64,000 nt of DNA. It comes from Magnolia sinica. Lineage: Eukaryota; Streptophyta; Magnoliopsida; Magnoliales; Magnoliaceae. Shown piece by piece: positions 6,050 through 56,542 of the stretch. The stretch's first letter is position 1. Every line of letters begins with the position of its first letter. The DNA is taken from positions 7,044,501 through 7,108,500 of the forward strand of contig NC_080577.1 in assembly GCF_029962835.1 (NCBI RefSeq). Direction: 5' to 3'. Under the pieces are notes generated by a model. The model did not search any database, was not told the DNA's origin, and was given only the letters and a program-made list of their open reading frames with translations. Made by a program: the position numbers and the translations under genes.

Positions 6050-6051
6050 AA

Positions 6052-6636
6052 AAGGTCCAATGGAGTGTTGGTACAGGTGACCGCAGCTTCTGGCGATGCA
6101 ATTGGACCGGTCTTGGCCCTCTTCGAAATTTTTTGACGTCAGACATCTAAGTCAACGCTCTTTCCTTGCAAGTTAACCACGTGTTGGGCCCATCTGGTCC
6201 TCTCTCGCCGTCAATGGCTCTTTCCATGCTCCCTAGTCATGTTTTTGAGCATATTTTCTAGCGAGGATTCTGTGTTTCAGCAGGTCCTGATACTCCTCTT
6301 TGGCCCGTCACCTCTTTAGGCGCCTTCTCCGTAAAATCAACCTGGGACATCAGCAAGCTCAACGCTCCCAGAAAAGGCTGGGCGAGATGGGTGTGGCACA
6401 GGAAACTTCCGCCGAAAATTTTCCTTTTTATCTGAAAAATTCTTCACAATGCAATTCTGGTTGAAAAAGCAGTCCAATCCAGAGGCGTGTCCCCTTGCAT
6501 TAAAGTGCGGTTGTTGCAGGGAAGATTCTGAACAGGGCCCAGCCGAAGAGACCATGTCCCATCTCTTTTTGGACGAACAGCAAGCCTCATCCATCTGGAG
6601 ATTTTTTGCTGTTCAGGTAGGGATTTCCATCATGTA
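6052..6636 (+). pseudogene. LINE ORF2 C-terminal zf-RVT region, broken
   Basis: The first frame gives WSVGTGDRSFWRCNW, the conserved block seen after the reverse transcriptase of plant LINEs, then a stop at about 6148. Another frame from about 6290 gives PLWPVTSLGAFSVKSTW and WVWHRKLPPKIFLFIWK, the hallmark 'G-x-F-x-V-K-S-x-W ... PPKI' of zf-RVT. A further shift leads to CGCC, then MSHLFLDEQQASSIWRFF, where the family has its Cys/His cluster. At least two frameshifts; non-functional. Confidence 0.8.
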
Positions 6637-6917
6637 GACAACAACGGTGCAAGCAAGAATTCTGCAATGGAGGGCTTGCGCAGACAGAAGAGGACGCTCA
6701 GTACGTAACCTTCTTATTCCAGCTTTTATTCTTTGGGAGCTTTGGCGATCTAGGAACGGGGCTCTTTATGATGATAGAGCTATGAAGACTCCATCGGTTA
6801 TCGCAAAAGTCTCTTGGTGGCTAACCACCACCACCAATGAAGATGTTAAAAGAAGGTATGTGTAACCTCATCCAACGCAACAGTCTGTAGTCTCACGGTA
6901 GAAACCCCTTGCTAGTT

Positions 6918-7373
6918 GGGTGAAAGTAAATGTTGATGGGTCCTCTGGGGAAAACCCGGGCTTGGCTAGGGGTGGAGGTGTTTGTAGAAATGACAATGGT
7001 GACTTCATGTTTGGATTCGCTTTTGGTTATGGTGTGATGTCCAATATTAGAGCTAAATTCGTGCGGTTCATGATGGGCTTCTTTAATGCTTGGAAAAAGG
7101 TTTCTCCAAAATTGTGGTGGAGTCAGATTCGGAATTGGTGATTAAGGTCTTTAATGAGGAAGCAAACATTGGTTGGCAATGGAATGGTTGGAGAGCATTA
7201 TGGATAGACTTCGGAATCTTGCCTCGGTGGAGTTCAGACACGTGTTTAAGGAGGGTAATGCTTCGGTTGATGCGCTCGCGCGTGATGGAAGTGTGTCCCA
7301 AGGTCGTTTTCTTACGTCTTACAGGGCGGATTTGCCTCAGCAAGTGAGGGGTCTCCTCTTCCTTGACAATTAG
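6918..7373 (+). pseudogene. LINE-type RNase H domain, broken
   Basis: Three frames join into one RNase H fold: KVNVDGSSGENPG (first catalytic Asp), then IRAKFVRF, where the family has Ala-Glu and this copy has Lys in place of the catalytic Glu. A shift near 7090 gives VVESDSELVIKVF (Asp kept), and a shift near 7180 gives GNASVDALARDG (last Asp kept). Plant L1 lineages carry such a domain after zf-RVT, matching the position here. Frameshifts plus loss of one acidic residue mean it is dead. Confidence 0.85.
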
Positions 7374-7591
7374 TTGGTCTCGGATCGATTGGAGAGAGGA
7401 AGAATTAAGGCTTCAGTCTCTTTTGGTGTTCCTTTATTTTGTCTCTTTCAACTAGGGGGTCCCGGCTTCTTTACGATAGGTCTTCTGTAGGTCCTTTTTT
7501 CCTACGAAGACCCGAAATTCTATAACTTTTTGTCCATAAATGAAATATACCTCTTTTATTATTATTATTTAAAAAAAAAAAAAAAAAAAAA

Positions 7592-8677
7592 GTCCCTACC
7601 TAACTTAGGAGGCTAGCTTTAGGGAAAATGGTTCACTAAAGAAGTTAGTAAAGTTAAGAGTAGGTTTAGAATCGAGAATATTCAACCATCCCTTCTAAAC
7701 AAAAAAGGTGTCTCATATCTCATTTTCTTTATCACATCTCAATTAAGCTCAACTTACATTCTACTCCACATATTTCTAATATATCTACATTATTAAATTG
7801 CACTTTTAATTTTTTTTCTTTTTCTTTTGCATTTCTTTTTCTTTATTATATTCATCTATCTGGAATCATTTGACTCTGCAAATTAAGGCTATGATATTTT
7901 TATTTTTACTTAGTTTGATTCCTTGTGAGTTATGCAAAGCATAATTAGATATATAATGTCGAATTTTTGCTGAATCTTTTAAAAAATCATAAAATTTTAT
8001 AAAGTAGAGATCACATGATGTGTGGGTAGAAAAGGTTACCTAACCATTTCCTCTTCAGAAACAATTGTCGCTAATCAACCATAGATTTGCTTGAGTCAAA
8101 TTTTTTTATAATTGCCCCGACCCATAAGCAACTCTATGGTTTTTAGTCAATCATAGATTCCGTACTTCATTTGGCTAGTGGCAATTCCAAGAATAAAAAT
8201 CCATACGTTTTTACATCCGAGTCAATTCCACACCCATCTTTACAGTTGATAAGCAGAAGTGAAAGCTAGTGAGACACTTTTACAAGGAAGAGACCTTTCA
8301 CAAGGAGCTACTCTGGGATTGGTCTGTGCTCACATTTTCAACTGGTTGGATAGTCCTATTTAAAATTTGGATTTTGCTTTGTCGCTGATGGGGCCTGTCA
8401 CACTAACAACAGTAGAACTTACACCACTATATATATTGGCTTCACCATGGAAAATTCACTCTACACCAAAGGGAATTGTGTCCCGTGAGTTTTTATGTGA
8501 AATATGTATTCCTGCCATTCCAGCCAACCATATGATGGCTAGCTATGAGTCCGGTGAGACACACCAAGGGAAACAATTGAGAGGGGGGCGCACACTCATA
8601 ATTCTGCACGGACGGCCTGGGTCAATCATAATGAGTATGTGAAGTTTGGACCGTTCAGCCCCTTTATCTGCATTTGA
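7592..8677. other. Intergenic, no recognised feature
   Basis: AT-rich and non-coding. Short open frames (for example 8367-8642) have no protein-like character. I see no repeats with clear ends. Confidence 0.5.
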
Positions 8678-9166
8678 TGATGGGGTATGCATATAACCGT
8701 CATTTTGCACATCAAAAGAGCCCCGGTGAAATCAAGGGTGCTTGTTTCTCCCTTATGTTTTGTTTGCTGTGGCCCACCTGAATCACAAATTATACTGAAT
8801 TTCAGGACCTTATTCTAACATGATGTGACCCATCTGATGGTTGGAATTGATATCAACAGCACATTACAATGAATTGAAGCCTACCCCATGTGGCCTATTC
8901 AGTGCCCACGGGTCATTACAGTTCATTGGGTGAGAGAATACTATGAGATTTGGTCACATTAAACGTTTCAATCCACTTCTATAGAAGAGGAAATTATTAC
9001 AAAGTAACAAACCTAGGTACACGGATAACCTAGGTACACGGATAAAAGGATATGCATAAGCACATCTGACACTAACCAAGTACATGAGCCTTGTTTATTT
9101 AATTAAGGCAAGCATCTTTTTAATGACACACTATAATTCATATCTTCTTCATTAACCATCATACAA

Positions 9167-10963
9167 TCAAGGATAAACTTCGATAATCGACCGCAAACCC
9201 AAGACAGGTAGTATCTTGTAGTCAGAGAAACCAGCGTCAATGAAGATTTTCTGCCACACATGTTCTTCCCTCTCCTTGCCTGTTGAAGCCAACATCATCA
9301 TCACATCGAAGCAAAGCTTTGTCTCCATTGACTTGTAATCATCTGTGTCGCCATTCACAACTGTTTCTAGTAAGATCACCTTCCCTCCATCTTCTTTAGT
9401 TGGAATTACCTCTTTGCACCGTTTTAATATCTTCACGCAGTCATTATCACTCCAGCCGTGTAGGACTGACTGTAAGCCATTTTCACAATGATTAGAAGCC
9501 ATTGCTAGATATAAAATGGGCAGGTTTGGATCAGCCCAATTGCTTGACTACAGCCCATTAGTTTCTGGCACTAGCAGTGGTGAAGAAGAACACATACAAG
9601 GCAGCAAGTGTGTTGAGCATGGTTCTAAAACGCGTTGACACAACTCAAAGACTTGTTGAATCAATGCGATTACTCAAAAGAAAAGATGTTGGCAGTTCCA
9701 CTCAAATTCTCACCTTTCTAGCAAAGCAACAACCTTAACAATGGATGCACATGCAATGATGTTTTTACGACAAACTATCTAATTAATATGGAATTTACAT
9801 TCCAACACTATTGTCAAAAAAAGTTTTCAAAAAGCTTAATTTTTACAATGTCCAACATAATGATTATATGAAATTCGCCCCAAACATTAGTTGCAAAACC
9901 AAAACTTAGACGAAGTGCATAAAAATCAGACTCATTTGTGATTCTGATGGAGCATATCAAGGGAAACAATTTAGAGGGTGATCATTTCCCTGTACAAAGT
10001 TTCGGTCCACCTGAATCATAATCGTGAGTGATTTTTTCAGTACTTGGACTAAAATGAGGTGACCGACCTTGTGGTCGGGGTGGATTTTATTGTAAATGAC
10101 ATAGTGGGGGCCACCCAAGTAGCCGAATCATTTTCTAGATGGGTCATGGTCATAGAGTTTGTTTGGACAAATAAGTAGCGGTAAAGTACCTTGAGGAGAA
10201 GAGCGTCCGCAGGGGGGATCGACTCGAACATGTTCCCTCCAACCACATCTATTTTCGTACTCTTTGGCACGTGAGCAATAACATGTGGTTGATCAAACAC
10301 GGTGCATTTGACGTGTGGGAACGCATCAGCGATGGCGCGAGCTACAGCACCTGTCCCACCTCCAACATCGACCAACGACCGTAACCCGTCGAAAACCTGA
10401 CCATACTCTTTAACGACAATGCTAATGATGAACTGTGCATCACTGGCCATGGAATCGTTAAATAAGCAATTAATCTCAGGGATCTCGGCCGCGACCTCCA
10501 AGAAACTCAGTCCGTTTGCTTTCTCGAAGGCCGTGGTTTCATTGCCTTGGAACCAACTACTTAAGAAATTCCAATTTGTGAGTAGAGAAGAGTCGAGCTC
10601 CTCTAACACAAAGGCTGACAAACTGACAGTGGCCTCTTTGCGGAGGAGGCTAGAAGGTGGTGTGATAACATACCCTTCTTCAACTCCGTTATTGCCGTTG
10701 ATCTTTTCTACATCAAAAAACCCCAAGTGGACCAACAGACGCATCAGGCGGCTCATGTAAGGGGTTTTGGATGAGTTTATCTTTAGTGCAGCAACCAGCT
10801 CAGAGAGGGTCATTGGACGGCCATGATTGTGGATAATGTCTGGTATGCCCAGCTCAACAGCACACTTGAGGGACATGGAATTCACGTAATGATACAGATG
10901 GTTCCATACGTGGGCTTGGGCTTGCAACAGCTCATGGCCTCTCTCTCCTGAGTAGGGCGCCAT
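9167..10963 (-). CDS. Plant small-molecule O-methyltransferase (COMT-like class II), two exons, intact
   Basis: Joining exon 1 (10963-10190) to exon 2 (9469-9167) gives 358 residues, usual for cytosolic plant class II O-methyltransferases, which move the methyl group of S-adenosylmethionine to a phenolic hydroxyl. The N-terminal dimerisation domain (about 10-120, with HVWNHLYHYVNSMSLKCAVELG) is followed by the SAM site LVDVGGGTG at 197-205, acidic D224 in VFDQPHVI, catalytic His262 in VLHGWSD, Glu293 in VILLE, and the second acidic cluster GKEREE near 322-327. The C-terminus RSIIEVYP is canonical. The intron sits where the family has its single intron (after LLK), with GT/AG ends. Oddities: Gly263 replaces the usual Asp after the catalytic His, and Ser259 replaces the usual Trp that opens exon 2. 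The nearest relatives I recall are resveratrol/flavonoid OMT-like proteins; the substrate cannot be told. An AATTAAATAAAC stretch about 65 bases past the stop may serve polyadenylation. Confidence 0.88.
9470..10189 (-). other. OMT intron (720 bp)
   Basis: Donor AAG|GTACTT (exon ends at 10190) and acceptor GGCTTACAG|TCAGTC (exon begins at 9469), phase 0. The next AG, four bases further on, would shift the frame, so 9469 is preferred. Compared with copy B this intron lacks the hAT element and about 0.9 kb of neighbouring sequence. Confidence 0.8.
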
Positions 10964-11055
10964 CACTAACTCCCGTCTTTTACACCTGGAATCACAATAA
11001 ATAAAAAATAAATAAAATAAGAGGATTTTAAAACACAATAAAGCTACGTACTCCT

Positions 11056-11535
11056 GATTGTTGGCTGTACAAACCAGATTTACTGGCTTTGCAAAGCCGC
11101 AAAATAACTTAGAAAATCTAATTCCTTAGAAGGAAGGAAGAGAGAAGATAACAAAACAGAACTTTTACTTTTTTAAGACTGTTTTACCACTGCTTCACTC
11201 TTGCTACAACCTTATACCCAAGGTGCCGTTTTATAGGCATTTGCATCAATTGTGAAATGACTATAATACTCCTATTGGATGTTTCAATCATTTAATGTTA
11301 CTAGAAACCTATGTAGGCATTTCATCTTCCAAAACATCTAGTTGAGAATTGACTCGTACTGGCCTCATTGTATGGTCAAATTCCCTAAAGGGATTCAAAC
11401 TTTCTAATATTCTTGGAAAATTTTTCGGACCAAAATGTCATTATTCTTGGCTCAATAGTTGTACAGTTTAGAGTGCTAAGTTACGTGTTATTTCATTTCC
11501 GAGAAAGTGATATGGACGGGAGCCTTTTTAGGGTA
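11056..11535. other. Upstream flank of the OMT gene, no further feature
   Basis: This stretch holds whatever upstream regulation lies beyond the duplicated block. I see no clear TATA box at a standard distance; the leader just upstream of the ATG (10985-11030) is A/T-rich. No repeat with defined ends is seen. Confidence 0.4.
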
Positions 11536-33999: not shown

Positions 34000-34490
34000 T
34001 GCCACCACTCTGGGGGCTGATGGTCGATGATCTGTGGGCCCCAACATGATGTTTGTGTTTCATCCATTCTGTTCATCTATTTTTACCAATCATTTTAGGG
34101 CTTAAACCGAAAAATGAGAGGGATATAAATCTCAACTGGACCACACCACAGGAAAACAATAGTGATTAGATATGCACCATTAAAATCCTCCTAAGGCCCA
34201 CTGTACTGTTTATTTGACATTCAATCCGTTGATTAGGTCATACAGACCCAGATGAAGGGAAAAACACAAAGATCAACTTGATCCAAAAAGTTTTTAATGG
34301 TTAACGTTCATTCAACACTGTTTCTTGTAAAGTGGCCACTTGATATTGGGATATACCTCATTTTTGGTCTCATATAATAAAATGATCTAGAAAAATATAT
34401 GGACGAGATGGATGAAACAAATACATCATGGTGTGTCCCACAGAGCACCAACCACCAGCCATTGGCCAGTGGTAGGGAGAGTAGCCAATC
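34000..34490. repeat. MITE, GATTGGCTACT terminal type, left end clipped
   Basis: Starts at GCTACTCCCCCTGCC directly against the previous element, lacking the first ~12 bases of its terminus, and ends GAGTAGCCAATC near 34490. Likely formed when one element inserted into the end of another. Confidence 0.65.
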
Positions 34491-35340
34491 AGTTAACACC
34501 TATTATTGGCAGAGGAGAAAACACCCAGGTCATGTGGGGTCCACCATGTTGTTATTGTGAAAGTTCCTCAGTGTGGCCCACTTGACTCTTGGACGGGCTG
34601 ATTTTTAGGGATACTGTTATCATCATGTTGCTAAACTGATAAACGGGCTGGACGTAATGTACACAATATGGTGGGCCAAGCACGCAAGCCTATGATTGGC
34701 ATTCCTACCCCATTGTTCCATGTGGTGTGGCCCACCTAAATGCAGATCAGGCTAACTTTTCTCCCCAGGAATTAGCATAGAAGGGCTTACCTTATTGTTA
34801 GAATGGATGACGCAAACACAACACGGTGGGGCCCCGGGGCTCAACTGTTGTATGCGCTGAGTAGGCCTATAATGTACTGAGTAAACTCTGTGGGGCCCAC
34901 TGTGGTGTACATGTCTTGCCCACGCCGTCCGTATGTTATATCAGCTCATTTTAGGACAAGAGTCCAAAATTAAAGCATATCCAAGCCTCAAGTGGACCAC
35001 ACCCTAGGCAATAGTAGGAAGTGATCTCTTACCATCAAAAGCTTACTGAGGGCCACAGAAGTTTTGGATTGTGCTAATATTATATCAGCTCATTTTAGGA
35101 CAAGAGTCCAAAATTAAAGCATATCCAAATCTCATGTGGACCACACCCTAGGCAATAGTAGGAAGTGATCTCTTACCATCAAAAGCTTATTGAGTGTCAC
35201 AGAAGTTTTGGATTGTGCTAATATTTGTATTTTCTTTCGATCATGTCTATGTGAACTTATGAGCAAGTTGATAATGAATGGACAAGTTATCCTGCTGTTT
35301 CGTGTAGTGCCGTCCAATTGAGATTTAGATGTACTTCACT
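34491..35340. repeat. MITE pieces, including a split GAGTAAACTCTG-type element
   Basis: Partial copies at about 34510-34850, then an element starting TGAGTAAACTCTGTGGGGCCC (about 34879). Its interior holds the 144-bp tandem duplication at 34937-35224 and stops near 35340 where the CACTA-like end begins. The matching inverted edge GGGCCCACAGAGTTTACTC sits at about 43235-43254. Confidence 0.6.
34937..35224. repeat. 144-bp tandem duplication
   Basis: Copies 34937-35080 and 35081-35224, both starting TATATCAGCTCATTTTAGG and ending TGTGCTAATAT, with only a few differences. It is a recent local duplication inside a MITE. Confidence 0.92.
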
Positions 35341-35344
35341 TTTG

Positions 35345-35830
35345 AGCTCTACAAGAAAATGAGGCTTTAGCCTTGAACCAAAACCGTGGCTAAAAAGGTT
35401 AAAATTTGAGGTTAAAGTCTTTAACCTTAATTTTACCTTAGTTATCCAAATCGAGGTTGGAACTGCCGTGGCTAAAGTCTTTAGCCTCAGTTTTAGCAAC
35501 CAAGGCTAAAATGACTTTTATAACTTCGGTTCTTCAAATGAAGCTAAAAAAAAACCTTTTTAGCTTCAATTGTCTCGAAATGAGGTTAAATCAAAATTTT
35601 AGCATCTGTTGTTTCCAACCGAGACTAAATCTAAATTTTAGTCTCAGTTGCCTCTAACCGAAGCTAAATTTATTTTTGACCTTGGTTTTCAACAACCGAG
35701 GCTAAAGCTTTTAGCCACGGGAGTTATAGACTTAGTTTGGATAACTGGGGCTAAAGATAAATTTAGCCTTTGTTATCAATTGAGGTTAAATTTGATTTTT
35801 TAAACCTTAATTCTTAACAACTGATGCTTA
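35345..35830 (+). mobile_element. CACTA-like left end with iterated CCGAGGCTAAA motifs
   Basis: CTCTACAAGAAAA at 35345-35357 matches the CACTA terminus CACTACAAGAAAA but for one base. For the next ~480 bp, variants of CCGAGGCTAAA and its complement TTTAGCCTCGGTT recur every 25-40 bp in both orientations, the usual subterminal transposase-binding arrangement of En/Spm elements. No transposase and no right end were found. Confidence 0.6.
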
Positions 35831-36731
35831 ATTGTTTATTTTAATCCATTCATTTTTTTTTAATAAAAAAAAGTGGGATCTACTGTAGATGGAACTTGAT
35901 TGAAGAAATACATAGATTGGATCATCCAAACAACAAAGTTTAAATCGACAGTGGCCAGGAAAAACATTAATGGTCAACATTAAGGGCTGAAAAGTAAAAA
36001 TAAGTGATGACTATGGTCTTACTCTAAATGTGATTCTCTTGACATCATCCATATATAACATGGACCATTTATCGAACAGCTCAGATTTTAATCCATTTAT
36101 AAACCTATGCATAATCATTCATTCAATCAATCAAATACAATCATTTATTTTAATCCATTAGTACAATACCAATTAAAAAAAAAGTTATCCATTCATAAAA
36201 GCATAATACTAATAAAAAAGTTATCTATAGTTGCATTCTCTGGAGTACCATAGCTAACCCACCGGCCTTAATTTTCAAACTGATCAATGAAAGCTGCCTG
36301 ACCATACCACCCAAAGCTCCCCCCTCTACAGCAACAACCTACAGATAATTTATAAGCAAATTGAGGGATTTTAGAGTCAACATATAGGAATAGAAGCAAC
36401 TACATGTTACTAAGTAAAAGAAATGAAGATGAAGAAGATATGCTGCATTGGAAGAAATAAATGAAAACCACCCAGGTCTACTCATAGTTGGGAGAGGTCT
36501 TGCCTTCATTGAGCTTAAGACCCATCACCCTTGGCTCAACCATGATGGGACCACATGCCTGCATGGCCGACATAGTGGGTCCTACTACCGTAGATGGGCA
36601 ATGTTGACAATCCTATGCACTAGATTTCCCCATTAAACATATGGATAGGCAGTTGATTGCAAGCGAATCTTTATCATTGAGCGGCAAGACCAATGGTCCA
36701 GACAGTGGGTTCAATCATAACTTCCAATTTA

Positions 36732-37452
36732 TGACGCAGGGGAGGACGTGAGGTCACCGTCTTCCTCAAGAGGATAACTATTCCGAATCCACAGAACTTC
36801 TCTGGACTCCTCGTAGAGACTTCTTGAATCCACGAGGAAAGAAAGCAGGAAATAGAAATAAATTCTAATAAATTTGAATTTGATTAATGAATGAATAAAA
36901 ATGAGTTCACAACCCTTTAAATAGGGGTACCAAGCAATGGGAAAGAAATCAAAATCAAACTACAACTAAAACTCCTAGAATTCGCGACTTACTATAAATA
37001 GTAAACTTACTATTTATAGACGGTCGTGATGTCTACTAGTGCGCAAGGTTTTCGGCCAAAAATAGTAAGTGTCCTATTTGGCTTCACCAAACCGTTCTCC
37101 TAATTATTCTAAGCTCTTTTCACGTTGGGCGCAACTCCTAAAGCCCGACGGATGAAAGAGTTATAATCAAACTAAAACTTATTATTTATAGTAAAAACGA
37201 AATTAAAACACGGAAATGACCATCGATCAAGGGGTTTTTCGCAATTTCGGACTGCGCAACCCGGCATAGCGGGGTTGGTTGGCTAAAGTAGCTCGTTCTA
37301 CCCCAAAATCATATATTTTACGTCAGATAACTCATTCCGGATTGCGAGATACGCCCGATCTAAGGTCCGACGGTCCAGATCACTTATGTCGTCGACCAGG
37401 CCTTTTCTGATCCATCTTGGCCATGAAACTGTCTGCGACCCGCTCTACATCA
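36732..37452 (-). repeat. Solo LTR (family L), 721 bp
   Basis: TG...CA ended, flanked by ATTTA (36727-36731) and TTTTA (37453-37457), 4 of 5 bases equal. Its sense is minus: TGATGTAGAGCGGG at the start, a TATTTAAAGGG promoter-like box (about 36918) before TTGTGAACTC, and ...CCTCCCCTGCGTCA at the end. Relatives: 42765-43208 and 54875-56542. The original host of this family is not known to me. Confidence 0.75.
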
Positions 37453-38528
37453 TTTTAGGTTCATTGCCAAAGCCAAAGCTACTGAATCCAATGTAAGCAA
37501 CCAACCATACCAATATCAGGAGTACTGCAGAGAAGTTTCAAAGCATTGTATATCTAAACCCACCTTTAACCCCTCACTGCGAAAATGGTAGGGTTCTTGA
37601 AACATTTATAGCTATAGGTAGACAAGGTTTTTGCAAGCATATGTATTTTTTTCGTCTCTGTGTTATTTAAAACTTGCAGAACTCTTTGTAGTTTGGTTTT
37701 CTGATCTCACCTATAGTTTTCTTTTTAAACTTAAGAAATTAACATTAAACCCTTCTTCAAAAAGAAAGTGTTTCCTAATCATTTATGGTAAAAGAATTTC
37801 ATAGAGTTAGCTAATTATTGATTTTATAGTTATATCATATATAAGATGTTAATTACTGCAACTGAGCCTATGAAGATTCCCTAAAAGTCTTCTCGTAGAC
37901 TTAATTTGGCTGAATCGGATTTCTTGAGTTTTTAGAACTATGCTATAAATGGCTTTTGTTTTTTTGTTTTTGGAACTATTAATCATGCATTATAAAGCAC
38001 AAAGCTGCCCACAACAGTGATGTTCACTAACTAATATATGTACATAAAAACAAAGCCTCGATGAGATTTTTTTATAAAAAAAAAAGACAGGAATTTCTTT
38101 TTCATACTTCAAGACAGGCTTAATGGCATCAGTGATGGTGCCTTACAATCAATAACTCTAGTACAATCACAACAACAATTCATGGAATTAACAAGCGAGA
38201 AATATGTTCTTATGGTTGTGAAAACATTTTCAATGCCATAATATGCAAGAGGGCAAGTGTAGGATCACCTGGTTTATCATGTTCCATTGCCCCACATGTG
38301 GATACAAGTTGGACTGATGTATAGCAAGTAAATATGCACGAACTGATGTTATAAATGAAAAAGAAATCATCAATGATTGCCTAAGCATGATGTCTTGCCA
38401 AAAGTGTTGCAATCCAATGCAAGGCCTCAATTTTGGTAGCATCTCATTCATTAGATAGTCGTCTGACAAACAAAACTACTACTCATTAACATCTAGTCAT
38501 ATTACATAGGAAGAAGAAAACATCTTAC

Positions 38529-38609
38529 CTCTGCAGCAGAAATGTAACCATTTTGATCCTTGTCAAAGATCTTGAAAACCTCCTTCAGTTCCTCCTCAGA
38601 ATCAGTGTC
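38529..38609 (-). pseudogene. Captured calmodulin exon (third EF-hand)
   Basis: The 27 codons read [12 protein letters not shown], then the calcium loop [12 protein letters not shown] with its Asp, Asp, Asn and Glu ligand positions intact, and no stop. This is the EF-hand 3 of plant calmodulin or a close calmodulin-like protein. It is flanked by AG (38610-38611, minus strand) and by donor GTAAG (38524-38528), so it was copied with its introns. EF-hands 1, 2 and 4 are not found nearby. A short fragment cannot work as calmodulin; the clean frame suggests recent capture or use in a chimeric transcript. Confidence 0.85.
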
Positions 38610-40229
38610 CTTCATAACAAGTGGAAATGGGAAAAGTTAGAAATGCCTAACAGAAGCTGGCAACTATTATTGCCTAATAATATTCATAAGGATTAGAATC
38701 ACACAGTCACACAAAGAGGTTTACTACTCTATAAGGAGGTTTAGTATAAAAGGAAAAAAAAAAAAAAAGGGCCAAATGCAAATTCATATATGTTTGTATT
38801 TTTTAAAAAAATTATTATTTATTATTATTATTATTTTATTATTTTTTTCGCCTAAATCTCAATCTAACTTATTTTCTTGTTTAGTCCCTGCACATCTGCA
38901 TGCATACACATATATGCCTTATATTGCATTGATAGGTGATCATGATCTTAGGCACTTGAAAAATATGATTTGCAGTTTAAACGAAAATCAAGATACATTT
39001 ATTTGAATAGCTAACAATGTTTTCTGCATTCAACTAGAATTTTCATGGTAAATGATGATTCAAAGGGAGATCTATATGAATCAGATTCTTGATCCTAATC
39101 TTAGCTGATCTATATGAATAAGAGGAATGTTTGCAAGTGAAAACTCATGACCATACAAAATCTATGGGCACTGGATGCATGATTTTGCATTTGGTAGCAC
39201 AACAATCATCCATTTTCTTTTTATAGTGATTTTGCATTTTGCAATGTAATATATACTATTGCAATGAAAACACCATGCATTAAATTTTGTCAATGTTCTA
39301 TGTCATTTGAAAACATCATGCATTGAGGAAAGCACTTTTTTGGATGAATTGTTTTTTTTTTTTTTTCCTTCCTTTTTTTAAAACAAAAAAGCCCCCAATA
39401 TCTTGACGCAACCAAACAAAAAATCCCCAACTTTTTCTCTTGAAAAGATGGCTCCTTGGTACAGATAAGCCAAATTATTGGGGATCAAGAAGTTTTTAAT
39501 TGCGGGTGCTTAATCCCCACTGTATGTATTTTAAACTTTCTAAGTGAAAAAAAGAAAAAGAAAAAGAAAAAGAAGTGGAGTTAACAAGCTACTCATAAAT
39601 TTTGAGATCAAGGAGAGGAGACACCATTTTTAAAGTAGGGAAATTATCCAGTAAGGAACTCCAATTGCAAATGGCTATGGGAACATGAAACAGAACTACT
39701 GTGTTTTGCAATGGATCATTTCCCACAACACTATTGGTATCAGAGAAATAACCTCTTAATAGTACCCAACTACTTAGTGAAGCTGGTTACACTCATCGCA
39801 GGCATGATGGGGGCTCACGTCTCCTTGATATAGTGATGAGGTGAGGCAAAGGGAACAGAGTAACTAATTTAAATTGCTTTATACCACATTCTGCCTGGTC
39901 TTAAACACTATGACCCAACCATTTTTTAGATACGGTGATAATTAACTCGACCAAGCAACTGGCGAGCATTATATAGGAAACCGTTGGAAAATAGTACTCA
40001 CAAACCTTTTGAATACTAAGAGCAGTCAATGACTGATGCTCTAGTCACTCCGTCTTTAGGAAGAGTTTTGGCTACTTCATATGCCTCCTGGAAAATCAAA
40101 TCCTCAAATTCCACATTAAATGAAGCGATTAAAATAAGCAAATCACTAAACTAAAATTTGAAAAAGTCCAAACTGAAATAAGACAGACTCATGTGTTATG
40201 TGAGCACAAAAGAAAGCAATAAACTTTAC

Positions 40230-40358
40230 TTGCCGGATTGGCTCTGGTACACAGTAGTTACAACACATTTTAACAAACTTGACAGATGCATCGAGAGATA
40301 TGCGATGTCCAATAGATATGAATATTGGCTTTAAAGAACCTTGAGTACATCGCATTGC
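40230..40358 (-). pseudogene. Captured endonuclease V exon
   Basis: Forty-three codons without stop, containing LKPIFISIGHRISLD, VKFVKMCC and VPEPIRQ, the C-terminal signature of eukaryotic endonuclease V (an inosine-specific nucleic-acid endonuclease). Acceptor GCAG lies just before (40359-40362, minus strand) and donor GTAAAG just after (40224-40229). Arg-to-Cys changes in the usual CRYRVPEPIRQ block (CNYCVPEPIRQ) look like C-to-T decay. No other endonuclease V exon is visible. Confidence 0.85.
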
Positions 40359-41744
40359 CTGCACAAAATTTTGAAATTCAAAACAAAACCATATAATGTA
40401 GAGTTAACTAGCCTAAGCTGAATTCTCTTACCGCCCCCTAGAAAGTTTGTTTTTTATCGTTAAGAAAGGACATTTCTACTTATTTATTTATTTATTTACT
40501 TTTTTCTTTTTTCTGAAAAATGAGTATGGTTCAGTTTTCACAGGAAATACATCAACTGAAAATACAAAGAAATTGAAAAGACCCTAAATGTGTCTAGTGA
40601 GTACCAAATGATAAAGAAATAAATGAAAATCCAAAAAAGAACCTATGAAAATCAAAGGTGGCCCCGCCTTGTAGATGGCCTGGCCAAAATAACAGCCCAG
40701 TTCATTTATCAGGTAGGCCCCACCCTGTAGATAGCCTGGCCAAAATAACAGTCCAGTCCACTTATCAGGTGGAGCACACCTGCCAGTTAAACCTGGATAT
40801 TTGTTGCAGTCATGACGTATGTGAGAGGTAATCAGTTTCAAAAATCATCTAGCAATATTACGAATTCTGCATGCATTGTGATTACATGCTCCTATGAACT
40901 GCAGTAAATAGATCTTCTATGAAGTGACATCCATGCCATAAATGTGTGAAACATGTAGAGTCATCAGGACTATCAATTTGGTGGGCCACCATACAACAGA
41001 GCCAATTCAAACAAACAAATTAGCATTTTAAGGCTATTCTTCTTCAACTAAGGGAAAATTGAGAAGTCTAAGGGAATCAAATTCCTTTGAACTAAGAGTT
41101 CATCCTAAGACCTTAGCTAGGGTGCAAAATAATTGGGTAAAATCGCGAATTTTTCTCACAGTCGAAAATTTCCATCTTTGTCTGTTACTTGAGATAATTC
41201 CTTCATTTACTCAACTCTTCCACAAAAATTACTTCTTTGTAACAAAAGAAAATCATAACAAAGATATGATCTTTATAACTTACAATAATATATGACTAAA
41301 ATCTTTTTTGTTTCCTTAAACAGATGAATCCCAGAATACATGAGACTTGATACCAGCTGTGCTTTGTACATAGTGGTCAGTTTTAGAGTAGATTGCTTGA
41401 TCATTTTCAAGGTTCTGTTCCAGGCAACAAGTTTCTCCATCTTCTCTACCTATGGCTTCCCATTTGTGGTTTAAAGTTTGAGGATTTATTATCCAAACAA
41501 GTTTTCATCCACAAAAGAAAATTTTTTTTGACTCTGTAACAGATTTAATCGGTTTCATGAGAGAGAGTGAAGCTGAAGATGGCTGTAATAATTATATGTA
41601 AATATGTTGAAATCATGTAGTATCTTCCTCTGACAAACTGATACAATTACATGTCTGCAAGCTTCAAGTTGTGTGAATATTTTTTAGTCAATACACCTAC
41701 AATGCAAAACAGAAACTGTAGAAGTTGGGATAATGACCACTCAT

Positions 41745-41819
41745 TGCTAATGAGTCGAGAACATTATGAACTCCTGGTAGTTGTAGGCTGATGACAGCCA
41801 CTGGACTTCCCCTGTGACA
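41745..41819 (-). pseudogene. Captured MurC-like (Mur ligase) exon
   Basis: Twenty-five codons, HRGSPVAVISLQLPGVHNVLDSLA, carry the 'PG-x-HN-x-L-x-(A/S)LA' block of UDP-N-acetylmuramate-alanine ligases, a family with plant (plastid-derived) members. The acceptor CTGCAG precedes it (41820-41825, minus strand). The expected donor GTGAGT reads ATGAGT, so splicing would fail here. Family call rests on one motif. Confidence 0.65.
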
Positions 41820-42178
41820 CTGCAGGCAATAATTACGTCAGAATTGGTAATTCTATAATAGATGCTTTATGCACTGAACACGCAAGCCATGGACATCATG
41901 TTATAATACCACCACAATTTTTTATATTGAAAGGTGAATACACACACACACACTCTATAATAGAAGCAAATCTCTTCTATAGTTCAACTTTGTCATTTCA
42001 ACAGACTTTTAGTGAATGAATCATCCAATCCATTAAAAAAAAAATGTACAAATAAGCCCAATTCAAATTAATGAAAGCAAAAAAATCAAAAATCAAAAAT
42101 CAAAAATCAAAGGAAAATTGCAACAAGCGTTTATACATGCATCACAGAAAATAACCAACAAGGAAACTTGAAACTTAC

Positions 42179-42301
42179 ATGGCCAAAATTATGACCCAAG
42201 TTCGATGTTGCCCTCACTCCACCTTCCCTCTCATCCAAGGAGACAACCTCAGCTTTGTTTTCACAAGAACGCTTGATAGCATACGCCAATGCGCTTGGGT
42301 C
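42179..42301 (-). pseudogene. Captured 3-dehydroquinate synthase exon
   Basis: Forty-one codons without stop: [20 protein letters not shown], then [19 protein letters not shown], matching the metal-binding 'R-A-x-L-N-L-G-H-T-F-G-H' block of plastid 3-dehydroquinate synthase (second step of the shikimate pathway). Both His are kept; Leu-to-Ser and Thr-to-Asn differ from the usual. Acceptor AG (42302-42303) and donor GTAAGT (42173-42178) flank it. No further exon nearby, so it is a fragment. Confidence 0.85.
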
Positions 42302-42400
42302 CTTGGATCATATATAAACGCAATAATCATTAAGAAAATATTATTATCTTAGTTATGAAAGTAAATATTATTTAGTTTAGAGCCTGGCCATCCACATGCA

Positions 42401-42764
42401 AGCACAAGTGCCAATTTCACGTGCAAGAGATCCGAACTTTCCATCAGGTGGGGCACACTGATTAGATGTAATCATTAAAAATTCAGGACATTTCACTCTT
42501 CATGTGGGCCAAAATGAACAAAATAAATGGATAACTAAATTTTTTTAGTTAGCCATATATTTATTTTATACCCAATAGCTCATTTTTGGGCATAATGGCC
42601 TAATTTGAGGGAGAAGATCTGGTCATTGTCCCACCTTATGGAGAGCTTTGATATCCCACTTGAATGTCATATAGGCTCATGGGCAATCCAAATTGTCAGA
42701 TATGCTTCACTTTTGGGCTGATCATGCCCTAAAATGAGGGGATAGAATGGACGGAGGCCTTAGA
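42401..42764. repeat. MITE remnants
   Basis: GTGGGCC-type pieces (TTCATGTGGGCC near 42503; CTTCACTTTTGGGCTGATC at 42708 onward) leading into the GGACGGAGGCC arm that the LTR at 42765 interrupts. Confidence 0.5.
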
Positions 42765-43208
42765 TGATGCAGGGATGAACATGACGAGGTCGATCACCGT
42801 CTTCCTCAATGATAACTACTTCGAATCCACGAAGCTTCTTGGGCTCCTCATGGAGACTTCTCGAATCCACAGTGAAAAAAACAAGATTTGAACGAGTTTC
42901 GAAACTAAACTACAACTAAAACTCCCTAAAACTCTTAACTTCCTATAAATAGTAAATTTATTATTTATTGTAAGTTTCCTATGTTAACCAAGTTATTCTC
43001 CTAATTTTTCTAAACACTTTTTATGTTGGCATGGTTAGTTAAAGTAGCTCTTCCTATCCTAAAATCATATATGGTGCATCGAGTAACTCATTCCAGTTTG
43101 CGAGATATGCCTGTTTTAAGGTTCTAACGGTCTTGATGACTTTTGCCTTTGATCGGGCATTCTTTGATCCATCTTGGACATAAAAGTATCCGCAACCGCT
43201 CTACATCA
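42765..43208 (-). repeat. Solo LTR (family L), internally deleted, 444 bp
   Basis: TGATGCAGGG ... CTCTACATCA, flanked by TTAGA (42760-42764) and CTAGA (43209-43213), 4 of 5 equal. It is ~280 bp shorter than the 36732 copy through internal loss. Removing it joins GGACGGAGGCCTTAGA to TAAGACACATACATTG, a continuous MITE arm, so the LTR inserted into a MITE. Confidence 0.8.
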
Positions 43209-43329: not shown

Positions 43330-43834
43330 GGAAATTGATTGGCTACTCCCCCTGACACCGTCAATGGCTTGTGGTCGGTGCTCTGTGGGCCCCACCATGA
43401 TGTATGTGTTTCATCTATGCCGTCCATCTATTTTTACAGATCATTTTACAGTATGAGACAAAAAATCTTAAGTGGACCACATTATAGGAAACAGTGTTGA
43501 ATGAGCGTCGACCATTAAAAAACATTTTGGAGCCATAAAAGTTTTGGATCAAGCTGATTTTTGTTTTTTTCCTTTCATTGGGGCCTGTATGACCTAATCA
43601 ACATATTGGATGTCAAATAAACAGTACAGTGGGCCTTAGGAGGATTTTAATGATGGATATCCAATCACTATTGTTTTCATGTAGTGTGATCCAACTGAGA
43701 TTTATTTACCTCTCATTTTTGGGATTAAGTGATAAAATGATCTTTAAAAATGGATGAACGGAATGGATGAAACACATACATCATGGTGGGCCCCACAGAG
43801 CACCGGCCACCGTGGCAGTAGCCAATCCGTATCC
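43330..43834. mobile_element. Mutator-type MITE, GATTGGCTACT type, near-perfect 9-bp duplication
   Basis: Flanked by CTTAGTATG (43321-43329) and CTTACTATG (43835-43843), 8 of 9 equal. Ends GGAAATTGATTGGCTACT and inverted AGTAGCCAATCCGTATCC. Interior is an extended palindrome with GGTCGGTGCTCTGTGGGCCC at the left and GGGCCCCACAGAGCACCGG at the right. Confidence 0.88.
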
Positions 43835-50355: not shown

Positions 50356-51616
50356 ATATATATATGAACAACTAAGCTTCTCTATACTACACTAGGCAAT
50401 CTAGGGGTGTCAATGGGATGGAGTATGCAAATAGCCATGCCATTGTGCACATCAAGAGAGCGCCGGTGAAATCAAGGGTGCTTGTTTCTCCTTTATGTTT
50501 TTCTTGCCGTGGCCCACCTGAATCACAAATCATCCTGAATTTCAGACCCTGATTCTAACATGATGTGACGCATCTGATGGTTGGAATTAATTGATGCCAA
50601 CAGCACATTACAATGAAGCCCACCCCATGTAGCCTATTTGGTGCCCACGGTTCTTTACAGTTCATTGGGTGAGAGAATAGAATGGGATTTGGTCACATTA
50701 AACAGCTCAATCCATTTCCATAGAAGAGGAAATTATTACAAAGTAACCAACCTAAGTACTCATGGAAGCCTTATCAACGACACAGATAAAAGGATGCATA
50801 AGCACATCTCACACTAACCAAGTACATGAGCATTGTTTATTTAATTAAGACAAGTCTCATCTTAATCACACACTATAATTCATTTCTTCTTCATTAACCA
50901 TCATACAATCAAGGATAAACTTCGATAATCGACCGCAAACCCAACACAGGTATAATCTTATAGTCAGAGAAACCAGCGTCGATGAAGATTTTCTGCCACT
51001 CATGTTCTTCCCTCTGCTTGCCTGTTGAGTGTACCATCATCGCCATATCAAAGCAAAGCTTTGTCTCCATTGACTTGTAATCATCGGTATGGGTATTCAT
51101 AACTGTTTCTAGTAAGATCACCTTCCCTCCATCTTCTTTACTTGGAATCACCTCTTTGCACCGTTTTAATATCTTCACGCAGTCATTGTCGCTCCAGTCA
51201 TGTAGGACCGACTGTAAGCCATTTTCACAGCGATTAGAAGCCATTGCTACAGATGAAATGGGCTGGTTTGGATCAGCCCAACTGCTTAACTACAAGGCAA
51301 CAAGTGTGTTGAGCATGGTTCTAAAACTGGTTGACTCAACTCAAAGCATGGCTGAGACAACTCGAATTGGGAAGTTTTTTAGCTGAGTCATTGGGAAGCA
51401 AGGTAGTGAGTGTGACTTGGCCTGGACTAGACTTGTTGATTCAATGGGATTACTTAAAAGAAAAGATGTTGGCAGTTACATTCAAATTCCCACCTCACTA
51501 AGGCAACAACTTTAAAGGCACATGCAACTACATTTTTATGACAAACTACTTAATTAATTTGGAATTTACATTTCAGAACGTTTTTCAAAAAAGTTTTCAA
51601 AAAACTGCCTCTTTAG

Positions 51617-52216
51617 TAGGGGTATACACGAACCGAGTTAGCTCGCTTGACTTGACTTGAAAAAGCTTGATTCGACTCAGTTCGAAGCTAAGTTCGAGCC
51701 GAGTCGAGCTGATTTTTTTAAGCTCGAAAAAATTTCGAACCGAGTTCGAGCTTGCCCGAGCTCGACTCAACTTGGATTGAACCCCAACTCGAATAGAACT
51801 CGGATTGAACTAATTCAGTGACTCAGTTACTTTGATATTGATGTTGCTCACCAAGTGTTTGACGAAATGACTCAAGGAAGTGTCGGCTAGTGGCAAGGAA
51901 GGTATGTATATAAACCAAATATCATTTTTTCTTGATTTTGATGTTGTCTACAACGTGTTTGATGAAAATACTTGTAAACAGCTGCTACTATTTTACACAC
52001 GGTGAGAAATTGAAAGTGCAAAGCATGTGTTTGTGAAAATGCTACGGAGGCTCGATTTTGGCTCGAACTTAGCTTGAACTGGCCTGAGCTGTTGACCGAA
52101 CCGAGCCGAGCTGGCCAGTCAGGCTCAAAGATCAAGCCAAGCTGAGTTCAAGCTGGGGTTAGCTAGTGGCCGAGCCGAGTTGAGCTAAGGCCAACTCGAC
52201 TCGGTGTACACCCCTA
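51617..52216 (+). mobile_element. hAT MITE in the OMT pseudogene intron, perfect 8-bp duplication (600 bp)
   Basis: CTCTTTAG flanks it at 51609-51616 and 52217-52224. Terminal repeats TAGGGGTATACAC and GTGTACACCCCTA differ at one base. Interior dense in GAGTCGAG, GAGCTCG and GAACCGAG motifs, with an AT-rich middle (51830-52030). The same family is at 28656-29289 (reversed) and from 63547. No coding capacity. Confidence 0.95.
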
Positions 52217-52224
52217 CTCTTTAG

Positions 52225-53155
52225 TCATAAAGCAAATGGGTTTGTGGCTCCAATGGGCCCCACCATGATGTTTATGTGAGTTCCACCCTAAACACCAGGT
52301 GCCTAACCCCATGTCACCTCCCTAACCCCTTGTTAGGCCAATGGCCCAAAAATCAGCCCCCTTTACTCATGTCATTGCTGGATCCATGCTACCAGCACTC
52401 CTGGTGGGAGAGGGAACACACACCTATTTGTTTGTGTCGACCGGATCTAAACCCCATATGAGGCTCTGACTGGATGGACAATACCCACTTTTGAAGATCT
52501 GTGTTGAGGGGAGCCAGCTACGGTAGCAACCTTCATGTAACCTCATATTAGGCCAAGGGTTCAAAAATCCACTCCATTTGTGATTCATGTGGACCACATG
52601 ATTGGAAATAGTGTATAGGGCAACAATCCTCTTCCATAGCATTTCAGTATAGCCAACATGAATCATGAATGCGTATGATTTTTGGCAAAAAAAAAAAAGG
52701 CTTAAAATTTGTTTGGATTTCAATGGTTAGAGTGGATTTTATATAATTATGATATGGGCCCTGTAATAACAAATTGTGCACATTTCTCTCAATTTTTTCC
52801 TTCAGTGTGCCCCACCATAATCTCAGGTCAAATTTATTTTTTTCCTTTTTTTCATCTCTGTACTTAATATGGTACTAAATATCTAATGGCCGGAATGGAT
52901 ACCTACTGGTAAATAAATATCCGGGTGGCCCCCTCAAAATCAAGAGTGGCAAACCCTGTTCTTAGGTTTTTTTCTTTTCTAAATAATTTCCAGTATAGTT
53001 GAATACAAAGGACGCAATATGTATGCAAAATCTATCCATCCATTGGATGCATAATTAAAGTTTAGATCCATAACCAAAAAATCAGGCTGACTTTAACTCA
53101 CGTCAGCCACGCTGAAAAAAAAAGAAAAAAAAGTTGCCAAAGACACATCCAGTAC
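52225..53155. other. Extra intron sequence absent from the intact OMT copy
   Basis: About 0.93 kb between the hAT duplication and the point where similarity to the other intron resumes (near TGTCCAACATAATAATT, 53170). MITE-like phrases (GGGCCCCACCATGATG at 52256; CATGTGGACCACATG at 52588) but no clean ends. Either inserted here or deleted from the intact copy. Confidence 0.5.
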
Positions 53156-54375
53156 CCTTAATTTTCCGTGTCCAACATAATAATTAAATGAATTCCAGTC
53201 CAACCATTAGTTGCCACACCAAAATTTTGTCCAAGAGTATAAAAATCAGGCTCATATGTGATTCCGATGAATCATAGCAAGTAAAACAATTTGTAGGGTG
53301 ATCATTTCCCTGTACACTGTTTCCATCCACCTGAATCATGAATGTGATTGATTTTCTGAATAATTGGACTAACATGAGGTGACACACCTTATGGTTGTGG
53401 TGTGGATTTTAGGTAAATACCATAGTGGGCCCAGCCAAGTAGCCTATTCATTTTCTGGGACGCCATCTCGAGTAGATGGGTCGCAGGGTTGCTTGTACAA
53501 ATAAATAGCGGTAAATTACCTTGAGGAGATGAGCGTCCGCAGGGGGGATCGATTCGAACATGTTCCCTCCAACCGCATCTATTTTCGTACTCTTTGGCAT
53601 GCTGGCAATCACGTGTGGTTGATCAAAGACGGTGCATTTCACATGTGGGAACGCATCAGCTATGGCCCGAGCTACAGCCCCTGTCCCACCCCCAACATCA
53701 ACCAACGACCGCACCCCATCGAAAACCTGACCGTACTCTTTAACGACCATGTTAATGATGAACTGTGCATCACTAGCCATGGAATCGTTAAAGAAGCAAC
53801 TAAGCTCAGGGATCTGGGCCGCGCCTTCCCAGAAACTGACTCCGTTTGCTGTCTCGAAGGCCGTGGTTTCATTGCCTTGGAACCAACTACTTAAGAAATT
53901 CCAAGGTGTGAGTAGGGTAGAGTCTTAACTCCCCTAATACAAAGGTTGACAAACTGACTGCGGCCTCTTTGCGGAGGAGGCTAGAAGGTGGTGTGATAAC
54001 ATAACCTTCTTCAAGTCCTTTATTGCCGTTGATTTTTTCTACAGCAAAAAAGCCCAAGTGGACCAACAGACGCATCAGGCGGCTCATGTAAGGGGTTTTA
54101 GATGAGTTTATCGGAAGTGCAGCAACCAACTCAGAGAGGGTCATTGGACGGCCATGATTGTGGATGATGTCTGGTATACCTAGCTGAACGGCACACTTGA
54201 GAGACATGGAATTTACGAAATGATAGAGATGGTTCCATACGTGGGCTTCAGCTTTCAACAACTCATGGCCTGTCTCCTTGGTTGGGCGCCATCACTAATT
54301 CCCGTCTTCCACACCTGGAATCACAATAAAAAAAGATCGGATTTTAAAACACACTAAAGCTGTATACTCGTAATT

Positions 54376-54874
54376 GGTCATACTCCATTTCCAAATATAT
54401 AGGCACCAAATGAAAAAGCTACCAGGAAGAATGTGTGTACCTCCAAATACATCTAAACGGAGCTGCCAAACAAGTAATATTTATCATTATCTACAGAAGT
54501 CTCCGTATGCGTCTCGCTCGCATGAGATTAAGGTGGAAAACGCGCAATATGTACCATTTCTAGCATGCGTGTGCCAGATCATGATCATTCACCAGGAGAG
54601 ACTAACCACAAAAATGCATGTCTCACATTTCAGCTGGTCCACATATTAGGAGGGCTATAATTGTACACCCATTGTTGACCGTTCGTCGGTTTCTTTTCAT
54701 AATTTGCTTCTTTAAATTAAATTTTTATTTTTATTTTTTAAAAAAACCTGCGTGGCCCACCTAAACAGGATACTTCCTGATTTAATTCCAAGGCATCTAA
54801 AGAATGGCACCCTTATGAGCGGCTTGGATCTCTCTTTCTCTCGCCACAGTAAGTTTCCACAGGACCCAAATCCG
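54376..54874. other. Upstream of OMT pseudogene, no recognised feature
   Basis: Non-coding. The short GTAAGTTTCCACAGGACCC near 54850 resembles the target and edge of the 32257 Mutator MITE. Confidence 0.35.
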
Positions 54875-56542
54875 CCATAGTCAAGATGGATCAGAAAAGG
54901 CTTGATCGGAAGCAGAGTTGATCTAGACCGTCAGAATTTAAAATGGATGTATCTCACAAACCGTATGAGCTATCGGGTGTACCATATATGATTTTGGGGT
55001 AGCATGAGCTACTTTAGCCACCCAACCCGCTAAACTAGGTTGCCTATGCCAAATTTGCAAAATACCATCCGATTGACAGTCAAAATCTCATTTTATTTTT
55101 GTTTTTACTTTTTTTTTTTTAGTATGTTTTAGTTTCAGGATAAGTATTCATCGGCTTTAGGAGTTGCCCCCAACATGAAGAGTACTTGGAATAATTAGGA
55201 GAACCTCATGGTTCAACCAAATAAGACACTCACTATTTTTGGCCAAAAACCATGTGCGCTTGTAGTTTGATTCCGAAACTTCTCCTATGGCTTAATATCC
55301 TTATATAAAGGGTTGTGAACTCATTTATTTCAATAATCATTAATTAAATTATGAATTTTATATAATTTATTTTCTATTTTCCTCACTTTTTTTGCCCGTG
55401 GCTTCGTGGAAAGCTTGAACCACATATTGTTATAAATATGGGCCATATCCTGTAGGCATTCAAGGATTAACTTTAAAAAATGCTTTGCATGTTCCATTTT
55501 ACAGCAACTTACCTACCAATTAAATTGTGCCCCTCTGTGCATAAGAGTAGGATCCAATCTGTCTGTTGCATGAGCGCCGATCACACATGTATGTCGAATC
55601 CAGACCAACTGAGAATCATGTGGGCCTCCTTGTGATCTTTATGCATCACATGAATCATCGGTATCAAAATGATTTTCAAACACACCACATTTAGGGCTTG
55701 TTTGGATCAAGGATTACTATAATAATGCAATGAAAAATGCAATAATTTTAAAATTCTTTATCAAAATATTTTCTTTTGACTGAGGACAATTATGCACTTT
55801 TCTATTATTTTAATGTCAAATCATTAAATCCATGCAACATACATCACCTTACTAGAAAAAGTTATATAAGAATGTCCTGATGTATACATTTTTTTTTTAA
55901 TCCGTGCCATATGGACCATAGCATAAGAAATAATGGTGATTGGACACCCACCTTGAAAAACGTCTTAGGTTCATTGTAATGTTTACTCTAACCTATTGAA
56001 CAAGTCATATACACTTGGATGGAGCTGATATGCCTTAAGACGTTCAGAAAAAACTCAGCAAGAAATCAGATCGAGAGTGATTGTACAGAAGGTGATATAA
56101 TCTTAAGGATTAGAGTACCTTTTTCCATATCCATTCACAGCAAATAATTGTCTTTTCATGAAAGGACATGAATCTTTTTCCTATGGCAGTTATTTTTATA
56201 TCCATTCAGCCAGGAGCAGTTGTCCAACAGGAAAAACTATATCCACATATACGACACATGGCGTAGGTGCCACATGTACAATCATGTCATAATTACTTTC
56301 AATCAATAAAAAAAAGTAATAAAACAACAGAATATTATGGCTCAAAAAGAATGAACCGAGTGCCAAAAAGACTTGAATGGTAGAAGTTCAATTACCAACT
56401 GTTTCCTATGATATTGTTGGCCTAAATTTTGGATCTACCTTATATTTGGGGTGAGTTTGTAAGGAATTCAGAAAGCTTTGTGATTTCGTAGTTATCTTCA
56501 AGGAAGATGGTGATCAACTTCATCACGTCCTTCCCTGCATCA
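54875..56542 (+). repeat. Family L LTR, plus orientation, split by repeat C
   Basis: The first part (54875-55413) matches the LTR from CAAGATGGATCAGAAAAGG through a TATATAAAGGGTTGTGAACT promoter-like box at about 55303 to GTGGCTTCGTGGAAAG. The last part (about 56466-56542) resumes with TTCGTAGTTATCTTC and ends CTTCCCTGCATCA. The 5' end is truncated by about 40 bases. Joining the parts gives one LTR, so the ~1.05 kb between is a later insertion. Confidence 0.7.
55415..56465. repeat. Dispersed repeat C, copy 2, nested in an LTR
   Basis: CCACATATTGTTATAAATAT through AAGTTCAATTACCAACTG to GGGGTGAGTTTGT. Compared with copy 1 it carries about 300 extra bases at 56030-56350. Insertion into the LTR dates this copy as younger than the LTR. 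Confidence 0.7.

Follow-up and report, generated by a model that had tools for sequence, protein, structure and literature searches.

Remains of a probable CACTA-like Pack-type transposon holding pieces of at least four unrelated genes in Magnolia sinica

A 64,000-nucleotide stretch of the Magnolia sinica genome (hereafter the window; C5:7044501-7108500 on contig NC_080577.1) raises the question of how exons of calmodulin, endonuclease V (EndoV), a MurC-like ligase and 3-dehydroquinate synthase (DHQS) came to lie side by side. All genome searches were made in the assembly that holds the window (1.84 Gb, 127 contigs); C-numbers denote its chromosomes and L-numbers stretches fetched from it. Our analysis identifies the locus as a genuine, decayed assemblage of gene pieces of the Pack type, a kind known from plants. 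The collection was very probably gathered by a transposon that has itself since decayed. We consider it likely that the region is what is left of a Pack-type DNA transposon that was non-autonomous and most probably of the CACTA type, and that it holds genomic pieces, each an exon with adjoining intron, from at least four and probably five unrelated genes.

The four exons listed in an earlier note on this DNA were all recovered, each of them single and on the minus strand. AG precedes every exon and GT follows three of the four, yet two sites, the MurC 5' splice site and the DHQS acceptor, differ from those of the parent genes. The remaining exons of any one of these genes, a finding that the earlier note had set against its own reading, did not rise above noise in the 64-kb window by tblastn (queries: DHQS from E. 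coli and most of that from Actinidia, EndoV from E. coli and part of that from Thermotoga, calmodulin, and E. coli MurC; matches of at least 22 bits considered). A six-frame Pfam scan of 34.0-44.0 kb on both strands brought up neither a transposase nor any other convincing domain; on the minus strand, 24.2-34.2 and 43.8-53.8 kb gave O-methyltransferase exons only. Weak matches to GlnRS (E 0.64), TolR (E 0.7) and LicD (E 0.0022, below its cut-off) were set aside as chance.

The captured DHQS piece (42114-42338, minus) is composed of an exon of 41 codons (123 nt; 42179-42301, minus) with intron on both sides. The exon matches PF24621 (E 8.6e-12) and Actinidia DHQS (E 2e-19), and the piece is 93.3% identical to a parent gene on chromosome 4 (L013/L015; C4:101.022 Mb). 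In this parent the exons upstream of the captured one are present in order; the 6.4 kb retrieved downstream yielded none of the exons that follow it. The parent keeps the motif LNLGHTFGH, which reads SNLGHNFGH in the window, and two substitutions in the window copy fall at positions that are invariant in four DHQS alignments and in the parent. Where the parent has the acceptor CAG, the window reads CAA, and an alternative AG stands one base further on. The parental exon starts one base earlier and is of phase 2-0; the window version is of phase 0-0 only via the displaced AG.

The captured MurC-like piece (41047-41949, minus) contains an exon of 25 codons (75 nt; 41745-41819, minus; phase 0-0), recognised by its DNA match to the parent. 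Its 5' splice site is lost, the donor reading ATGAGT in the window and GTGAGT in the parent. Protein searches of Pfam, PDB and NCBIfam gave no significant match for this exon. Our own MurC profile, built from ten rows of which one (L006) was apparently translated in the wrong frame, placed the exon's frame first among 2167 segments, yet with E=1.2, which decides nothing. Against E. coli MurC the piece scored 40, a value reached in 3 of 2000 shuffles, and other window stretches among 3187 scored 46 and 45. Despite this weak protein score the identity of the piece is settled, because its 92.4% DNA match at L045 (C6:94.397 Mb) falls between two further MurC exons. These encode residues 159-203 and 298-384, lie on the strand of the matching exon and flank it in the correct order. 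The MurC-like gene of L045 occupies 3575-8842 and is thus a multi-exon gene on a flowering plant chromosome.

The captured EndoV module spans 39960-40632 on the minus strand and includes an exon of 43 codons (129 nt; 40230-40358, minus; phase 0-0) that matches PF04493 (E 1.3e-10). Its core (about 39960-40438) recurs at 92-94% identity in at least 26 other loci. This and the other copy counts are lower bounds; the search that gave the EndoV copies (the EndoV search) scored 40 of 522 candidates, and the calmodulin search scored 38 of 38. A family search located the parent at C10:88.141-88.146 Mb, where profile positions 4-76, 95-128 and 150-195 follow in order. Window positions 40011-40438 are 92-93% identical to the last part of this gene, minus about 190 bp, and 40011-40144 belongs to the region downstream of it. 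The latter location ruled out a separate gene as the source of a piece reading EAYEVAK (40022-40090). The same 190 bp or so are missing from all five copies that reach that point (the window, L038, L039, L044 and L048; L040 stops short, and L047, L049 and L050 were outside the comparison). We did not conclude a single capture of EndoV from this common gap, as a later insertion into the gene would give the same picture. A 3.6-kb EndoV-bearing repeat of L048 is also present in L047, L049 and L050, and in these three loci it adjoins long stretches that align with one another at many different offsets, in the manner of a tandem array.

The captured calmodulin-like module (38317-39130, minus) surrounds an exon of 27 codons (81 nt; 38529-38609, minus; phase 0-0) with significant matches to the EF-hand in Pfam (E 5.2e-9) and to calmodulin in PDB (1rfj, E 7.1e-19). 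Its boundaries are shared with other loci: the match covers exactly 38317-39130 in L041, L042, L043, L060 and L062, 38317-39123 in L051 and 38318-38824 in L052 (L061 and L043 denote a single place). Identity to the compared loci is 86-90% across the module. At least 15 other places hold a near-full copy (at least 289 bases) of the 341-bp calmodulin exon query, and no parent gene was recognised among these copies. A second calmodulin-like exon piece (LGDDQISKLKEAFGMFDKN) lies at 8146-8202 of L043, 3.6 kb away from the first.

At 36240-36338 on the minus strand (exon end approximate) we identified a decayed exon piece whose translation (EGGALGGMVRQLS ... IDQFEN-stop-GR) resembles BSL/BSU1-like phosphatases. 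The frame reads VVAVEGGALGGMVRQLS and continues one base out of register as IDQFEN-stop-GRWVSYGTP, so that both a frameshift and a stop lie inside it. According to one report, BSU1-like 2 has the peptide QLSIDQFENEGR in Selaginella, Arabidopsis and rice (PMC4022089). Judged by this peptide likeness, the fifth piece, which is broken, would derive from a BSL/BSU1-like phosphatase exon.

The donor search proposed in the earlier note thus yielded multi-exon parents in the same genome for three of the four recognised pieces, namely DHQS (C4), MurC (C6) and EndoV (C10). Alignment of donor introns to the flanks showed that the matches, at 92-93%, extend past the exon into the flanking intron, which bears out the note's view that the pieces were captured by DNA copying together with introns. 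Because the copies contain intron bases, the DHQS, MurC and EndoV pieces cannot have passed through a spliced RNA, and a retro-copy (processed pseudogene) was ruled out on this ground. The youth that the note had read from the open frames did not hold. Divergence K is 0.05-0.07 to the DHQS and MurC parents and 0.04-0.08 to other nearest copies of the pieces. Because of the parental divergence, the two lost splice sites and the frameshift and stop in the BSL-like piece, we reject a young age; the element is decayed.

The joints between the pieces recur elsewhere in the genome. Between the EndoV and MurC pieces lies a spacer (40436-41046) whose left part is common to EndoV-bearing copies, whose remainder is of unknown origin, and whose right side is fused to the MurC piece. 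This fusion at 41047 is also present in L044 on chromosome 1 (95.7% over 208 bp) and L040 on chromosome 3 (94.2% over 69 bp). A further locus, L046 (C4:115.189 Mb), joins 41047-41180, part of the MurC intron, through a 7-bp overlap to 42299-42704, the right-hand piece of the mosaic. Because these two fusion patterns recur on other chromosomes, parts of the composite must have been copied after fusion. The similarity to L046 ends at 42704; the right border of the mosaic is not a CACTA end. We dropped the idea that L046 represents an empty precursor site, as its 42299-42338 part already lies within the DHQS piece, and took it as a sibling with a deletion.

What carried the collection is suggested by the opposite border. 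At 35347-35830 on the plus strand lies a CACTA-like left end, in which CTCTACAAGAAAAT, with one mismatch to the CACTA terminal sequence, is accompanied by short subterminal repeats of both orientations that form a cluster (35380-35830). Over 455 bp this end shares 81% identity with its left-hand counterpart in L048 on chromosome 2. L048 is an intact 7.6-kb CACTA element (1830-9467) with CACTACAAGAAAA and repeat clusters at both ends and a 3-bp target duplication (CTA/CTA). On the one strand scanned it carries an EndoV piece, 94% identical to that of the window, and an actin exon (PF00022, E 4.2e-9). One of the pieces, EndoV, is therefore carried by a CACTA element in L048. Because the right end is missing within 84 kb, a CACTA element is proposed, by extension from L048, as the probable carrier of the window's whole collection. 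Measured against the features of Pack-CACTA elements, the window lacks the pair of inverted ends; it has subterminal repeats (at the left end only) and host-gene fragments with parents elsewhere, and the Pfam scan of 34.0-44.0 kb gave it no transposase of its own. Directly left of the CACTA end, 34933-35220 contains a 144-bp direct duplication with 95% identity.

The CACTA-like carrier named in the earlier note accordingly gains a left end and an intact relative, and several observations weigh against it. No right CACTA end or second repeat cluster was found in C5:7034600-7118400 (84 kb; the window plus 9.9 kb on each side). The end cluster is present in three of the 18 fetched stretches examined (L042, L043 and L048) and missing from the other 15. 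Both L042 and L043 have the CACTA end on the far side of the calmodulin piece, facing away from that piece. The CACTA ends of the window and L048 are 81% identical (K 0.19), the EndoV pieces 94% (K 0.06). L047, L049 and L050 show no CACTA end in their fetched 9.9 kb despite their EndoV-bearing repeat, and because they share this 3.6-kb repeat without such an end, L048 may have acquired its EndoV piece as part of a different repeat. Finally, no second locus with all pieces was found among the EndoV-search loci scored (40 of 522).

These points bear on a different account, in which the mosaic arose by independent nested insertions, each gene piece sitting in a mobile repeat of its own, such as the 3.6-kb EndoV-bearing repeat or a calmodulin-bearing one, and the CACTA end at 35347 being a mere neighbour. 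Both the EndoV piece and the calmodulin piece occur in multiple copies elsewhere, and none of the other loci scored in the EndoV search combined the two; the lack of CACTA ends near L047, L049 and L050 fits as well. However, the recurrence of the 41047 fusion in L044 and L040, and of the MurC intron joined to 42299-42704 in L046, indicates that parts of the mosaic were composite before they spread. We regard nested insertions as possible but doubtful. This account is partly compatible with a Pack-type carrier, and the two are not weighed as mutually exclusive. A Helitron carrier is also conceivable, as Helitrons typically pick up several same-strand exons together with introns, but when the entire window was screened in a simple way for a hairpin with CTRR ends, three matches came up, all near 16.3 kb and none near the mosaic (5' motifs of the TC type are too short to be informative), and a CACTA end is present instead. 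We consider this origin unlikely.

Long inverted repeats on either side of the region (34.0-34.5 kb and 43.4-43.8 kb; 86% over 273 bp) could be taken as the ends of a Pack-MULE. However, each arm is palindromic, and the family is dispersed over the window and near L047 and L050; on these grounds we read the arms as two separate copies resembling miniature inverted-repeat transposable elements (MITEs). A test for a 9-bp target duplication on the pair gave, as the best 9-mer pair, one with 1 mismatch. A Pack-MULE bounded by this pair is very unlikely. That the four exons lie on one strand and are open in the frames of their genes would fit a functional chimeric gene with exons in the order DHQS-(MurC)-EndoV-calmodulin. 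Against this stand the loss of two splice sites (the 5' site of MurC and the acceptor of DHQS), the broken BSL-like piece and the two DHQS changes at invariant positions, and we hold such a gene to be highly improbable.

For the Pack-type reading that we prefer, a mechanism can be outlined. Genomic segments were copied and fused and the fused parts then spread, as the parent matches and recurring joints in this analysis show. For Arabidopsis Pack-CACTA elements, tandem insertion with aberrant excision of CACTA ends has been proposed (reviewed in PMC13317346); by analogy, tandem CACTA insertions followed by aberrant excision may have taken up the intervening DNA here. All window pieces would once have lain between the end at 35347 and a right end now lost. 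Splice signals that point in one direction could yield a chimeric transcript, which at best would join DHQS (via the displaced AG), EndoV and calmodulin in frame, with MurC lacking its 5' splice site. A bolder proposal would be that the transposon lineage gathers single, same-strand, frame-keeping exons from unrelated genes such that its transcripts stay open, that is, exon shuffling under selection for coding capacity rather than at random. The MurC, EndoV and calmodulin exons are of phase 0 on both sides, and L048 holds EndoV and actin on one strand. The phase 2-0 of the parental DHQS exon counts against this proposal and lowers its already small probability; we regard it as very unlikely.

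The closest precedent is Tgm-Express1, a CACTA element of soybean that lies at wp, a flower-colour locus. This element of 5,725 bp is reported to contain fragments of five unrelated genes, which keep canonical introns and enter the host transcript as spliced cassette exons (PMC1947982). Tgm-Express1 and the window mosaic are alike in pieces of unrelated genes with introns and, for the window probably, in a CACTA carrier. Whereas Tgm-Express1 has inverted repeats at both ends and demonstrated transcription, the window mosaic has one end and decayed pieces and is known from DNA alone. A study and a review describe Pack-CACTA and other Pack-TYPE elements of Arabidopsis, rice and maize as non-autonomous terminal inverted repeat elements with coding DNA from several loci (PMC8903248; PMC13317346), and in maize Pack-CACTA elements are stated to contain the most distinct loci (PMC8903248). 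The window mosaic likewise holds coding DNA of several loci and no transposase recognised by Pfam. It differs in lying in a magnoliid and in lacking the end pair and target duplication sought by packFinder. A literature search naming three magnoliid genera gave no Pack-CACTA element among the matches listed, which is no proof of absence in print. L048 resembles the window in its left-end family, its EndoV piece and the position of both recognised exons on one strand; in contrast, it has actin beside EndoV, no calmodulin, MurC or DHQS match, and both ends and the target duplication intact.

The quality of documentation is unusual for such a mosaic, with the parents of three pieces and sibling loci at hand. 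Since the parents, the joints and an intact CACTA relative all come from one genome, it serves as a worked example of how a multi-gene transposon is put together step by step in a magnoliid, and the order of assembly is testable through the shared fusion points. Mosaics of this kind are readily mis-annotated as genes.

Other repeats lie in and around the mosaic. Two solo copies resembling long terminal repeats (LTRs; TG...CA), at 36732-37452 and 42765-43208 on the plus strand, align with each other and with a third, more diverged relative at about 54850-55560 whose ends are not clear; the first two would be later nested insertions. We rejected them as the two LTRs of one retrotransposon, as the copies differ and, by eye, the flanking 5-base matches are 4/5 for each copy's own pair and 2/5 for the cross pair. 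Dispersed GGGCCCCAC repeats occur throughout the window (e.g., 34015-34460 and 43371-43810); some are palindromic and MITE-like, and one family has 11 members. Two O-methyltransferase gene copies on the minus strand (9170-11125 and 50912-54291; Pfam match on the second) lie about 43 kb apart with the mosaic between them, and 300-bp stretches of the two are 91-92% alike.

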